Assembly: GCA_019120595.1 (NCBI GenBank)
Contig: DWUV01000124.1
Location: 1 to 38,637 of the forward strand
DNA length: 38,637 bases
Origin: Candidatus Mediterraneibacter tabaqchaliae
Lineage (GTDB): Bacteria > Bacillota > Clostridia > Lachnospirales > Lachnospiraceae
Reading direction: 5' to 3'
Shown here in pieces: positions 394 to 7,704 of the stretch. The notes beneath the pieces were generated by a model. The model worked only from the letters and a program-made list of their open reading frames with translations, made no database searches and was not told the origin of the DNA. Position numbers and translations under genes: made by a program. The number at the start of each line of letters is the position of its first letter. Positions within the stretch are counted from its first letter, which is position 1.

Positions 394-1839
394 CTATTTC
401 TCTCGTCTTTTTCGGATGACTGCCGCGCCGCACAGGACTCCTGCCAGCATCATTGCCGCCGCGGCCCCCGCAGCAGATGCAGTATCTCCGGTCTTTACTG
501 CTTTTTCCACTGTATCCGCACTGTCGCCGCGCTGATCATTCCCATCAAGATCTCCGCTGTCAGTATCCGGGATATTGCTGCCGGCCCCGCTGTCATTTCC
601 GCCTTCTGGATCCTGTCCCTGGTTTCCTTCGTCCGGATCCTGTCCGCCTTGTCCGCCTTCATCTCCACCGGGAGTTTCCCCACTCCCGCCGCCTTCTTCC
701 GGCTTCTCAACAAGCCGGGCTTCTGCTGCCTCAAGTTCTGCCACAGCATTATCGACAACCTGCTGGTCGTCCTCGGACAACGCCGGATCATCAAAGACCT
801 GCTGTGCCGATGCAAGGGCTGTGCGCAATGCTTCTGCGGACTCTTCTGTATACTTGCTGAGATCCAGTCCCGCTACGCTGTCCAAAAGCTCTTCCAGGGC
901 AGCTTTGTCTGCCTTTAACCGCAGTCCGCTCATGGCGTCTGTCAGGCTCTGCCATGCGCTGTTGACTTCCTCCTGCATTGCGTCGCCGTCTGCCATGACT
1001 GCCTCCGCATTTTCTTTTGCCGACAGGTACTCTGCCTGTCCCTCTTCTACATATTGATCCAGGTCGATCATCTGCGTCAGGTCGAGAGCCATCTCCAGAT
1101 CTGTCTTATCCCCCGCTTTGAACCCCAGCGCCTGGATCGCTTTCATCAGCTTGAATGCCGCGTTGAACACTTCTTCTTTTGTGGCGCTCTCATCCGCCAT
1201 GGCAGCTTCGCCTTCCGCGATTGCCTCTTCAAAGAGCTTCTGAACGGATTCCACAAGGTCTTCTGTATCACCGTTTGCCACATGCTCTTTTGCTTTATTC
1301 AGGAAATATTCTAGATTGGTCTTGCTTGCCCGCAGACCTGAAATTGCAGCCTGAAGCTCTTCGTAAGCCGCATCCACTTCTTCCTGTGACGCCTCCGCCT
1401 GATCCAGGACAGTCTCCGCCTGATCCAACGCGCTCTGGAGCAGCTCCCACGTATCTTTTACATATCCGGTGCCTGACTCATCCTTATACTGGCTGTACAG
1501 TTCTTCAAGCGCTGTCTTATCAACTCCGGATTCTGTGATCGTATAAATGGTATTTTCCTCTGTCGCAAACTCGATCGTCTTTTCACCGGAATTTACCGTT
1601 TCTCCTTTTGTATACTCGACTTTGTTCCCGTTGCTGTCCGTTATGGTCACATCCGCATTTCCCCACGGATTGACGATTTTTGCATCCGTTCCCTTTTCGC
1701 TGGTCAGCTCGATATACTGAACCGTATTATCTTTCATCTCAGAAGATACAAGGAACGCGCCTTTCTCACGGATCGTTGAGAATTTTCCGTCATAATCCTC
1801 CCGCCATACCGGGAATACTTTGATAATACCGCCGTCAGA
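394..1839 (-). pseudogene. 3' portion of a surface glycosidase: FIVAR-like repeats, Pro/Gly/Asp/Glu-rich spacer, C-terminal sorting-like signal (VKTGD + hydrophobic stretch + RKRREK)
   Basis: In the same frame as the upstream ORF 1840..4983. Translation continues after the TAG as SDGGIIKVFPVWREDYDGKFSTIREKGAFLVSSEMKDNTVQYIEL...; repeated ~70-aa helical units. Confidence 0.7.
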
Positions 1840-4806
1840 CTAGACCATCATATTGTTCAAAGCTTCCCGCACTCCGACCTTTTCCCAGCCATGGGTATTA
1901 TCATCTACGTAATAATTTGCCCTCATTTTGCTGATCACGTATGTATTGATCTTGCTTACAAGCTTGTCCGCGTCATACTGCACCCTTGCTGCCATGGTCG
2001 GTGCTTTCGGTGTACTGTTGACGCTTCCCCAGTTTGCCTGGTCCATCGTATTGCACCCGACTTCCAGCAGATACGGATCCGAATCAAACCCAAGCTGGTC
2101 GCCCGGATGTACAAATTCCATATTGACCGGAGCCGAAATAGAGCGGATCCCTCTGTCCTCAGACAGACCGAAGATCTCTTTTCCGTTTCTTTCAAAGATC
2201 GTCACTTCCGGACCGACGATATGATCCGCGATGTCCTGCCACATCTCATACTTCTCAGCGGAAGGCGCATGCTCTTTTCCGATCTCGATCAGACCTTCCA
2301 TGAGGTTCTTCACGCCGCCGGTGATCACGCTCGGATTAAAATCAAAGCTTCCCTCCTGCGACCCATCGTAAAGGACATAACAGTAATCATCGCCCATATC
2401 TTCCGTATATTCCGGATATTTGTCTGTATAATTCTGAGAATGTTTTTTGGTCAGGGCATGGCCATCCAGACCGGACGGACTGTCCTTGATATACTCATCA
2501 TCGATCCTCAGCCCTTTTTTCTCGATCCACTGTGCGTAAAAATTCGCATCATATACGAGGAAATCATAAAGGGTATACGTATTGCCCTCCGGCGTCTCAT
2601 GCTCCTCAAAGAGCCATTCCTTATCCAGAGTATATCGGTAATATAACAATACCTGTGATGCACAGAACAATGCATTCATCGTCTGGTTCAGATAAGATGA
2701 GCCAAACGGCGTATCATACTGTTTAATACCAACCGGATACAATACTGCATCCTCTATTCCATTATGCAAATCTTCTCTTGTCGCCCAGTACCACGTCGAT
2801 TCAATACTCTTAATGCAATCAGGATCCGCTGCGCTTGCAAGTCCTTTATCTATATTTCTCGCGATCACTTCAAATAAAGGCTGTGAAAATTCCCTTAACC
2901 GGTTGCTGGAGTAAGAGCCATAATATGGCGACTGGAAGTTATAGTTCAGGTGGTAATCCCCCTGCCACTTCATTCTGTCATTATTGGTCCACACACCGTA
3001 CAGCCCGGGAGCTGTCTCACCTTCTCTTGTGCAGCATGCAAACAGATACTGAGATCCGTAATAAAGTCTGTTTAAATTTTTGTCTCCGAAATCTGCGTAG
3101 GAAAGTTTATAATAATCCTGCCACCATTTCAGATGCTGTTCATACAGCCCGCTGATCTCTTCATCCGTATCAAGCTCTGAAATCTTAGCGACCGCTTTCT
3201 GAACTGCTGCCCCTTCTGCTCCGTTTTCCGCATCAGGCTCCTGATTTTCTTCGCAGTGGATGCCCGTCACGATCGTGACAGTCTCCCCTGCCGGTACGGT
3301 CACGCGGATCTTGCCCTCATTGCCGCTGTTCGCATAAGCCGCATCTTCTCCGCCGATCACTCTGGATGCCATCGCGATCTCACTCATCCATCTTGCCTTG
3401 TGGACTGTACCGTCTTTCATAACATCATCCGCCACGTTGGTTGTCCTTGATCCCCAGACGATTTCACCGTCTACACCTGATAATGATTCTGCAAGCGGAT
3501 GGGTTTTATCCATATCCACATTAGAGGCCGGTGTCAGGCTGGCGAGTTTTTCTTTTCCCCATACGTCCACCTCGATCATCTGGTCTTCGCTGCCCTTTGA
3601 CGTAAGCCTTGTGACTAAAATGTCTTCATCAGGATAGATCCAGGTATTCATGCTCACAGGCACTTCTCCCAGAGTCATATCTGTATTTACTTCCGCCTTT
3701 GCGATATCCAGCTGCTCGAGGAAATCATCCTGCGCGGATGCCAGGGACATGACCGCAGGTTCTGCCGCTGTATCTGCCGATGGGGATTCTTCAACAGGCA
3801 TTGTATAAAAACTGCTCTGCTCATTATCAAACAGATAGAACTTCGCGAGCCTTGCCCTCTGATTCGGATCGAGCGTTGTGGTTCCCGGCTTATACTGTTC
3901 TCCTGTTGTATAGTCGATCCTGATGTACCTTGCCGTCACCGGGGCGTCCAGTTTCTGAGCTGTCAGACCGGAAGTATTCCCTTTGACATCCTCAAGCACT
4001 GTCCACTCTTCGTCTCCCTCTGCCTTATAAGATACTTTGAAATCTCTCGGATTAAACCGCCTGTATCCTGTGGGGAAGCTGGAATGATGGTCCGCCGTGT
4101 CATTTCCGCTCGCATAAAGATCCTGGACAAGCATCTCGTTCCCGGAATGGACCATTCCCCATTCGTCAAACGTCCTGTCCTCTCCCAGATCGATCTGCGC
4201 CCACTGCGGCATCTTTCCATTCACACTTGTCCAGCCGCTGTAATCATTTACTCCGTTCTTATCTTTGTACCATGTATCATCAATGATATTGTTCATGTTA
4301 TTATACGGATTTGATGAAGCCGTAACGCTTGCTCCCTTTTCAGGTGTTGCCAGGCTTTCCGCATAATTATCATCACAGTACAGCTCGAACTGGCTGATCC
4401 TCGCAGTGTTGTCCCCGTCTTCCGCTGTGGGCTTTTCGATCAGCAGTCGGACATATCTTGTCCTGACTGCCTCGTCTAATTTTTTGTCTGTAACATCCTC
4501 TGTGTTCCCGGTCACTTCGTCCACTGTGATCCAGTCGGACTCTTCCGCCTCGTCAAGAGTCACCCCTTCTTCCAGGACCTGTACCTTAAAGCTGTCCGTA
4601 TTTCTCTCTTTTCCCAGCCCGGATGTGGAATTGTCGTGCTTGATGACATAACGGTCAAAGCTCACGGCAAATTCCAGGTCCAGAACCAGGCTCTGAGTCC
4701 CGGTCTCCGCTGCCTCCCATCCCGTAAAAGGCCGGGAAGTATCGTCCGGATTTCGTTTATACGCACCGTTTACGGCACGTTCCGCCCCATTGCCCTGCTT
4801 TTCCAT
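1840..4806 (-). pseudogene. 5'/catalytic portion of a multidomain glycoside hydrolase (two F5/8C-like discoidin regions plus a GH95-like alpha/alpha catalytic domain); lacks a signal peptide at the 5' end and stops at an in-frame TAG
   Basis: F5/8C-like segments (FTGWEAAETGTQSLVLDLEFAVSFDRYVIKHDN; VTASSNPYNNMNNIIDDTWYK); GH95-like LYGVWTNNDRMKWQGDYHLNYNFQ and EALNNMMV; TAG at 1840-1842. Confidence 0.65.
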
Positions 4807-6302
4807 AGAAAAATCCGCTCCGGGGATCACTGTCTGCGGGAAAGCGCACTCCGGGCAGGAAGCGCTGGATCTCCTCCACGCCTCCCATTTTGATATCCTG
4901 ATCACGGATATCGAGATGCCCGGAATGAGCGGCCTGGAACTGATCCGCAGAGCCAAAGAGGATTTTCCTGACCTGCACATCATCGTCCTGAGCGGATACA
5001 GTAATTTTGAATATGCGCGGACCGCGCTCCGCTATGGCGTGGAAGATTATCTTCTCAAACCGGTGGAGCAGAAAACGCTCGAAGGGGTCCTCTCATCCCT
5101 CTGTCTCCAGATCGAAGATGAGCGCGCTGTGCGCAACCGGGAGATCTTATCCCTTGCACTGAATGATTCTCCGAACCATGACGCTCCTTTTATGTTCAGC
5201 GACAGCGGCTTCCTTTTGTCACTGATCACGCTGGGGACTCTCCCACCGAAAGATGCGGACAGCGCCGCCCTGGTATCCGAAAGGTCTTTTCGGGCATTGT
5301 GGCAGGATGCTGCCCTGGCGGAATGCTTCCATCCTGTCAGTTCTGTCCAGCACCTCTGGCTGATCGATGAGCACTCCCCGCAGCAGAAGTTCCTCATCCT
5401 GCATCTCAAGGACTCTTCTCTGTCCGCGGAGTATCTCTCAATGATCATGAAAAAGCACCTTGCCGCACATTTAAACGGGATGCCTTTTCTGGTCCTGTCC
5501 TGCTGCCAGCCTATTTCTTATAAAGAGCTCTGGACCAGGGCGCGATTTCTCCGCTCAGCAGTCCGGTCCGCATCCTGTCCCTTCCGCCAGGAAGCGCTCT
5601 GTATAGATGCCGCCCCGTCAGAGTCCGACCCGTCCGCCAGGCAGCCTGACAGCGCCGCTGTATTAAAGGATATGAACCTTTTATTTTCCCTGGACACTGA
5701 GTCAGCTTTCTTACAATATGTCCGGGATCTCCTGCCGGAAGTCCTGGACCGTCCGCTGTCCGTGCTCCATCAGATGGTCCGGGTGGTCTTTGAGGCTGTA
5801 TCGCAGTGTTTCCAGATCGATCCGCAGGACTGCAGCGGAGCTGCCGCCGCCTTTTTCAGCAGGCTCATTTCCATGAAATCCGCGGATGAGTGCCGGATGT
5901 GCCTGGAAACCTCTTTAAAAGAATTGTGGAAGACCGCATCCGCCCACACAGGCAGCACCACTCTGTGCGCAAAGATCGCCCAGTATCTTGAGATCAATCT
6001 CAGAGAGCAGATCTCCCTGACCGCACTCGCCCAACGCTTCGGATACACGCCCGCCTACCTCAACCGGATCTTCAAAAAAGAGTATGGCGTCTCTCCGCTC
6101 CAGTACCTTACTGACCAGGATCTCCTGCGCGAAAGAGCTCCTGCTCAGGCATCCGGATATCAGTATCAAAACAGTCGCTTCCAGTGTCGGGTACGAAGAC
6201 TCCCGGTATTTCAGCCGCATCTTCAAAAACGAGACCGGGATGACACCATCTGCATGGACCGAGCGGGAAAAATCTGGATTTGCAGGGGAGCCTTCCTGTT
6301 GA
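4790..6302 (+). pseudogene. YesN-like response regulator (REC + AraC HTH), missing its N-terminus and frameshifted between the two HTH motifs
   Basis: REC core VCGKAHSGQEALDLLHASHFDILITDIEMPGMSGLELI..VLSGYSNFEYARTALRYGVEDYLLKPV. First HTH (LTALAQRFGYTPAYLNRIFKKEYGVSPLQYLTD) is in the 4790 frame; second (RISCAKELLLRHPDISIKTVASSVGYEDSRYFSRIFKNETGMTPSAW) is in the 6084 frame. Confidence 0.8.
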
Positions 6303-6437
6303 CGAAACGTCCGAAAACAGTGAAGCGCGGATGTCGAAGACGTATTCAGCGCGGGGATATGGGTGGTTGAGGCGACTTCGCTGTTTTCTGGTTTTGCTCA
6401 AGCCGGAAGGCCCCCCGACAAATGCAGCGTTTAAAAA
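6270..6437. repeat. ~168-bp imperfect palindrome formed by modules 1 (+) and 2 (-)
   Basis: AAATCTGGATTTGCAGGGGAGCCTTCC (6270-6296) versus reverse complement of 6403-6428 (TGCATTTGTCGGGGGGCCTTCCGG); inner arms CCGAAAACAGTGAAGCG / CGACTTCGCTGTTTTCTGG. Confidence 0.7.
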
Positions 6438-6440
6438 CGT

Positions 6441-6590
6441 AACGAGAAGGGAGCTCTCCCGGCAAAAAAGAACCCCTTCCCAGCCGACAGAAACATACAA
6501 CGAGGGGAACAGCTCCACCAAAAGACATCCCCCTCCAGCCGGCTGAAACATATCACAAGAGAGGCACAGCTTGCTGGGCCAAATCGAACG
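6441..6590. repeat. Tandem ~57-bp direct repeat, about 2.5 diverged units
   Basis: AACGAGAAGGGAGCTC...CCCAGCCGACAGAAACATAC (6441-6498), AACGAGGGGAACAGCTCC...CCAGCCGGCTGAAACATATC (6499-6554), partial ACAAGAGAGGCACAGCTTGCTGG (from 6555). Confidence 0.6.
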
Positions 6591-6679
6591 GCTAACCCTC
6601 TTCCGGAAGTCCATCCATATCTTACGCTTGGTATAAATTCCTGTTTCGCCGCTGAAGCTCCCCTTTCATCCACCTTTTG

Positions 6680-6786
6680 AAATCCTGCATTTGCCTGCGG
6701 GGACCTTCCGAATCGGATGCGCGCAGAAAACCGACGGTTTTCGGACGTTATATTTACAAGGAAGGCTCCCCCACAAATACAGATTT
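6680..6786. repeat. ~107-bp imperfect palindrome formed by modules 3 (+) and 4 (-)
   Basis: AAATCCTGCATTTGCCTGCGGGGACCTTCC ... GGAAGGCTCCCCCACAAATACAGATTT, with central GAAAACC-GAC-GGTTTTC. Confidence 0.7.
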
Positions 6787-7704
6787 CATCAATTTGGGGA
6801 GGTATTTTTCGTACTCTGCCCCTTCATCCCTTGGCACGCGATCCCTTACGGAATCCTGTATCGCCAGCGCGATCATCTCCCCTGCCAGCTTCACATCTTC
6901 CGCCAGGCTGTCTCCCCTGGCTTTTCCTCCTGCGATCACAGAGGCGAACAGATCTCCTGTCCCTGAATATCCCTCGCCGATAAACGGATGCGCGAAGAAC
7001 TGCGCCCTGTCTTTTGTAACCGCAAGATTCCCCATCATTTCCCTGCCATCCAGGCTATCGCGAAAACGGATACCCGTAACCACTACCTCTTTCGGTCCGT
7101 CCTGCATGACATGTCTGGCAAGCTTTTCCGCTGTTTCCACGATCTCGGCAGCGCCGCGGACAATCTTCCGTCCGTTATCCCCGCCGCCGGCCTTCTCCGC
7201 GCCATCACCTTCAGCGCCTGCATCTTCTCTATTCGCCGCCAGTCCCGGATCTGCGTCAGCAAGCAGGCAGAGCTCTGTCAGATTCGGCGTGATGATATCG
7301 GCCCGTTTTACCAGGCGCTTCATCTCCTGCTGGAACCCGGGAGAGAACATCTCGAACCGCGCCCCGTTGTCCCCCATGATCGGATCCACCAGCAGGAAGG
7401 TATCCTCTTTTTGAAATGTCTCCAGAAAGTCAATGGCTCTTCCGATCTGCCGGCATCCGGACATGAAGCCCATGTAGATCCCGTCAAACCGGACAGACAT
7501 TTTCTTCCACTCTTCCTGGATCTCTGCCATTTTATCCGTATAATCATCATAAAAATAGCTGGGGTATCCTGTCTGCGCGCTCAGGATCGCTGTCGGCAGC
7601 GGACAGGGCTGCACCCCCATCGCAGCGATCACGGAGATCGCCGCCGTAAGGGAACATCTCCCAAAGCCTGACAGATCATTTACTACTGCAATTCTTTTTG
7701 TCAT
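6754..7704 (-). CDS. Pyridoxal/pyridoxamine kinase-like, with a low-complexity insert
   Basis: PfkB/PdxK-type MTKRIAVVNDLSGFGRCSLTAAISVIAAMGVQPCPLPTAILSAQTGYPS, DPIMGDNG, ITPNLTEL, GTGDLFASV. Confidence 0.85.
   Translation of the reverse strand: MTKRIAVVNDLSGFGRCSLTAAISVIAAMGVQPCPLPTAILSAQTGYPSYFYDDYTDKMAEIQEEWKKMSVRFDGIYMGFMSGCRQIGRAIDFLETFQKEDTFLLVDPIMGDNGARFEMFSPGFQQEMKRLVKRADIITPNLTELCLLADADPGLAANREDAGAEGDGAEKAGGGDNGRKIVRGAAEIVETAEKLARHVMQDGPKEVVVTGIRFRDSLDGREMMGNLAVTKDRAQFFAHPFIGEGYSGTGDLFASVIAGGKARGDSLAEDVKLAGEMIALAIQDSVRDRVPRDEGAEYEKYLPKLMKSVFVGEPSL

Follow-up and report, generated by a model that had tools for sequence, protein, structure and literature searches.

A long, REP/BIME-like palindromic element at the 3' ends of genes in Mediterraneibacter

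The locus: two convergent genes and a composite repeat

The window, i.e., the whole 38,637-nt stretch of contig DWUV01000124.1 of Candidatus Mediterraneibacter tabaqchaliae analysed here, contains a degraded regulator gene and a pyridoxal kinase gene that converge on a pair of palindromes. The features of this region are as follows:

4790..6302, plus strand, degraded YesN/AraC-type response regulator; the frame changes at ~6115-6135 and the N-terminus of the receiver domain is missing
6270..6302, plus strand, element-encoded tail KSGFAGEPSC and stop of the frame-shifted, N-truncated YesN/AraC-type regulator
6270..6431, no strand, palindrome 1, short version, ~162 bp, with its outer A edge at 6270, AAATCTGGATTTG
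~6430, inner B edge of palindrome 1, minus-strand reading AAACGCTGCATTTG
6432..6679, no strand, spacer separating both palindromes
6680..6786, no strand, palindrome 2, short version, 107 bp, with its inner C edge at 6680, AAATCCTGCATTTG
6786, minus strand, outer A edge of palindrome 2, AAATCTGTATTTG
6754..6786, minus strand, element-encoded tail KSVFVGEPSL and stop of the pyridoxal/pyridoxamine kinase
6754..7704, minus strand, pyridoxal/pyridoxamine kinase (PdxK/PdxY-like), 316 aa

Direct reading and repeat finding place module 1 at 6270-6297 (plus) and its inverted partner at 6759-6786 (minus), the two being 28 nt long and 89% complementary; the other inverted pair consists of module 2 at 6411-6440 and module 3 at 6672-6701. 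ATTTGNNGGGGAGCCTTCC has three matches in the window, as compared with 0.16 expected from shuffling. The four alternating modules described by a sequence-only reading of this DNA are therefore present far above chance, but instead of four copies of a single insert they represent both ends of each of two imperfect palindromes with a spacer in between. The folds of palindrome 1 and palindrome 2 reach z = -4.5 and z = -3.7, respectively, against shuffled controls, and the downstream sequence reported as common to modules 1 and 4, AACGTCCGAAAAC, is found at 6306 and 6749. The region is probably one composite copy of a Mediterraneibacter family of long palindromic elements located at gene 3' ends. 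Rfam matches in the window were limited to tRNAs, and a known RNA family was rejected for a composite copy, its match to MIR1858 (34 of 137 bits) being of the kind a long hairpin gives by chance.

A multi-copy family in contact with stop codons

The proposal that an intergenic family in many copies sits at the 3' ends of genes was borne out by 88 edge matches in the genome of the window (Mediterraneibacter, 2.70 Mb, 236 contigs), where the reversed pattern gave 3 matches and a slightly longer pattern gave 88 versus 0. The close relative Lachnoclostridium sp. An76 has 61 + 60, i.e., ~121 edges, with 1 in the control, and these copy numbers and controls reject a chance repeat. In the window's genome most edges face outwards at a distance of 70-300 bp from the end of a contig, so that the repeat probably breaks this assembly. 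Among named genomes, exact edges were found only in Mediterraneibacter or in the close isolate An76, and 400 kb of a distant species (G060) held almost no copies; the family is therefore not uniform across the genus. A second, clade-specific edge, AAATTCGTRTTTGTY, occurs in seven species with 6-21 copies in each genome, with a stop at -1/-2 in 17 of the 21 cases having an upstream frame. Along one An76 contig (G042 C1) the density of complete elements varies, with 19 in 480 kb (340001-820000) but only 1, together with 1 unpaired edge, in 140 kb (1-140000).

Complete units are either single hairpins of ~350 bp (340 bp upwards) or composites of ~880-965 bp built as A..B, spacer, C..A, and short versions measure 41-181 bp. 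For the copy L001, 361 nt long, the folding energy is -174.7 kcal/mol, with z = -13. The apical hairpin differs among subtypes in the sequence of its two arms with the pairing preserved, and these arms co-vary: across four sequences only, both partners differ in 5 of 14 pairs, as compared with 0-1 in slid controls. One MAFFT alignment, in which entire hairpins of different subtypes are mixed, did not enter this pair counting.

The contact between element and stop codon is tight. Within the window's genome, a stop lies within 6 bp of the edge at 52 of the 66 edges that follow an open frame, mostly as TA|AATCTG, as TG|AATCTG or as a stop immediately preceding the edge. Gene context was assessed in An76 with a simple codon model over 800 kb, in which 27 complete elements are located: 18 between convergent and 9 between tandem genes, with none between divergent genes, against an intergenic background of 63 convergent, 352 tandem and 69 divergent spaces (p = 2e-11). 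On the 3' sides of genes, 39 of 45 edges are found at -2 to +3 bp from the stop, and on the 5' sides the edge lies 42-286 bp away from the start. Where a gene end contacts an element, the stop is TAA in 33 of 45 cases, versus 287 of 668 genes (p = 3e-5). Between convergent genes the element occupies the entire stop-to-stop space, and between tandem genes it begins at the stop and leaves 40-290 bp free ahead of the following start codon. It is present in 18 of the 63 convergent intergenic spaces of these 800 kb of An76; since 42 of the 60 convergent pairs tested are free of it, the element is not required.

Run-on tails and the arrangement in the window

Both genes at the locus end inside the element. 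PdxK ends as ...LMKSVFVGEPSL with its stop at 6754-6756, exactly as first read, and the response-regulator frame likewise ends in module 1 as ...TEREKSGFAGEPSC with its stop at 6300-6302, with the correction that the regulator is frame-shifted upstream and only its last frame reaches the module. The idea that the element encodes the end of unrelated proteins holds for YesN and PdxK, as well as for a MATE-like gene (L018) and the L064 gene, where it supplies the last 10 residues and the stop. These four are the clear run-on cases, the MATE-like protein ending in KSVFVGEASL and the L064 product in KSGFAGEPFC, and the YesN remnant of An76 carries the equivalent tail KSGFAGEPSL. As a general rule, the in-frame ending was not upheld: GEPS-type tails are the exception, with four clear cases including the window genes, and at most copies the native stop sits exactly on the element edge, to which the element contributes at most the last one or two bases of the stop. 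The PdxK run-on is common, in frame, to five related species. Because PdxK orthologs in species without the element end differently (...YLGMLIPRER and similar), the tail does not belong to the PdxK fold, and that explanation was rejected. The simplest origin that we infer from these sequences is a later run-on, in which a small deletion of 1-2 bases would remove the stop at the edge and translation would then continue to the next in-frame stop within the element.

The order of genes in the window differs from that in An76, where one composite element lies between the YesN remnant and SpoVG and another between PdxK and a Xaa-Pro dipeptidase-like gene. In the window a single composite lies between YesN and PdxK, and the dipeptidase end is located at the end of another contig (L095). 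Recombination between element copies explains this arrangement, and the YesN-element-PdxK junction could also be an assembly chimera; the repeats are able to link unrelated genes, which is probably what they have done in this window. An76 keeps only the last ~170 codons of the YesN-type regulator, and nothing in the surrounding An76 locus matches window bases 457-5805.

Old sites with exchanged interiors

Comparison across species shows how stable the sites are. Between An76 and loci mainly of Ca. M. stercorigallinarum, 21 of 23 sites are shared, including two G004 edges near-identical to An76, and of the two unshared sites one resembles a deletion relict and one is a degenerate site; nearly all edges of the window's genome lie at places orthologous to those in An76. 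The DegV gene is instructive in this respect, having an essentially identical native stop in 30 species of which only some carry the element: in many species the element stands right behind the stop with the sequence typical of its own clade, and in others an ordinary short spacer and terminator are found. The earlier suggestion that the element inserts at gene ends and supplies the stop, taken as a general rule, does not agree with the equal position of the DegV stop in species with and without it, nor does recent insertion agree with sites common to several species; the comparison with empty loci that was meant to define insertion boundaries yielded no clean empty site with a target duplication.

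The interiors behave differently from the edges. At 25 orthologous edges, the median identity is 96% for the 200-bp flank and 94% for the first 16 bases, as compared with an interior that is 72% identical to the ortholog and 93% identical to whichever other copy of its own genome matches best, the same-genome copy beating the ortholog in 20 of the 25. Since the sites are shared and the interiors are closer to copies of the same genome, the sites are old and vertically inherited and their interiors are exchanged among the copies within a genome, with the outermost ~20 bp staying in place. Either gene conversion or homologous recombination among the copies would bring about the exchange, which would probably be started by breaks at the hairpins, although in principle the exchange could also consist of re-insertion into old sites. 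As a separate observation, two elements of one G004 contig (C63, L116) have flanks 99.8% and 96.2% identical to An76 in a species that is more distant elsewhere, which points either to horizontal transfer or to a contaminant contig in the G004 bin.

Terminators and a possible function

Among the 18 convergent pairs with the element and the 42 without it, intrinsic terminators defined strictly as a GC-rich hairpin followed by a U-tract were found at 0 of 36 ends with the element versus 35 of 84 without it (p = 3.5e-7); a loose terminator search left the groups inseparable (28 of 36 versus 67 of 84). A simple scan of two elements found no U-tract terminator inside them, and any termination would therefore not proceed via the canonical signal. 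The elements apparently stand in place of ordinary transcription terminators and probably end or protect transcripts. For both strands the hairpin would take over from the intrinsic terminator that was lost, ending or stabilising the transcript and insulating convergent genes, and the element would be kept because of this terminator-like job. Extending this to a system of 3' ends that spans the genus, with long, mutually homogenising palindromes in the place of canonical terminators at a large share of convergent gene ends and with copies that co-evolve within a genome via frequent hairpin-linked recombination, each locked to its own stops, is a tentative proposal, for which we would give somewhat less than even chances.

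Alternative explanations

A still mobile MITE-type family inserting at TA or TAA beside stops, with the interior differences produced by repeated insertion of subfamilies, would account for the inverted repeat ends, for ~100 copies of which many are near-identical in one genome, for the frequent TA or TAA in front of AATCTG and for one G014 copy (L107) with GATC on both sides. We nevertheless regard it as unlikely, given that 21 of 23 sites are common to species and nearly all sites of the window's genome are occupied in An76, and that the outermost bases are orthologous and the interiors are not. Moreover, both ends of the element touch the stops of two genes, which insertion at a single site with duplication cannot give, so that TA-target transposition with simple duplication was rejected; the copies listed have no consistent target duplication, constant-length duplications with clean empty sites were not found, as unoccupied orthologs resemble deletions or relicts, and the stretches read contain neither a transposase-bearing version nor a parent IS sharing the element's ends. 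Movement by a RayT-type (Y1) transposase in the proteobacterial fashion, which would make the family a true REP/REPIN system, fits the location and the stop contact, both of which are REP-like (compare PMC3733652), and two single-copy, vertically kept Y1 genes have the REP-associated tyrosine transposase as their best family. Their scores of 69.7 and 64.8 remain below the curated cut-off of 80 (REP_Tyr_transpos), however, and between their flanks and the element there are only chance matches of 12 nt. In addition, the element pattern but no Y1 gene is matched in G066 and G061, whose assemblies are incomplete, and site turnover is very low. Because they sit among different hairpins (GGGGACGTAG..., GGGGTCTGACCCC), the two Y1 genes are not the likely mobiliser, and we consider this explanation quite improbable.

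Purely selfish or neutral repeats, surviving at gene ends since insertions elsewhere harm and coming into contact with stops by deletion of the spacer, appear very improbable. The location at 3' ends, where insertions harm least, speaks for them, yet neutral inserts of 350-960 bp should be lost or truncated and instead persist at sites shared across species, their edges stay whole on the stop codon instead of being trimmed at random, and ordinary terminators are absent exactly at the element-bearing gene ends. Over all these alternatives we favour a REP/BIME-like element of gene 3' ends that is inherited in place and homogenised by recombination between copies. With regard to the Y1 (HUH) genes themselves, they are found at L361 3979-4779 and L362 1757-2524, with orthologs in L363-L380, one beside glyS and the other beside transketolase genes.

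Relation to known repeats

REPs are units of 20-40 bp which, between convergent genes, lie <20 bp from both 3' ends, and their GTAG termini often supply a TAG stop (PMC3733652). The Mediterraneibacter element resembles REP/BIME in being a high-copy extragenic palindrome, often in alternating orientation and in composite arrays, that is located mostly between convergent and co-directional genes, downstream of genes and near or on their stops. It differs in its units, which are hairpins of ~350 bp or pairs of ~960 bp instead of 20-40 bp, in its edges, which give TAA or TGA and not TAG and have no GTAG/CGTC tag at the hairpin foot (AATCTGTATTTG..), in its occurrence in Lachnospiraceae, and in the unsupported link to a cognate RayT, the Y1 genes being flanked by different hairpins and not by the same repeat. 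With REP-like anatomy but neither the unit size, the tag nor the cognate transposase, it is filed as a variant of the REP/BIME kind and not as a member; it is an oversized, new form of that known kind. The enterobacterial ERIC/IRU and RU-1 to RU-3 repeats (100-170 bp; PMC2759123, PMC2229807) are also MITE-like palindromic intergenic repeats that are occasionally read into proteins, but they are much shorter, and the abstracts on them make no mention of stop contact at most edges or of interior exchange at fixed sites. A bidirectional intrinsic terminator is likewise a hairpin common to two convergent genes directly after their stops; however, ordinary ones are short, with a U-tract and a single-copy sequence, whereas the Mediterraneibacter elements are long, repeated and without a strict U-tract. 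Literature consulted mostly outside subscription journals contained REP precedents and no description of this family.

The family is a clear natural test of how repeats behave at gene ends, as orthologous sites can be aligned across species with intact flanks, making exchange between copies measurable site by site. It suggests that the wholesale replacement of ordinary terminators by a repeated hairpin touching the stop is possible, which raises questions on ribosome release and transcript ends, and it explains practical problems: short-read assemblies probably break at the repeats, and proteins acquire run-on tails from them. Finally, the composite spacer (6432-6679 in the window) recurs in L066, L075, L083, L085, L096 and L102; this conserved stretch of ~250 bp has a hairpin of its own (GGCCCAGCAAGCTGGGCC in L016), contains a degenerate direct repeat and possibly has a separate function.
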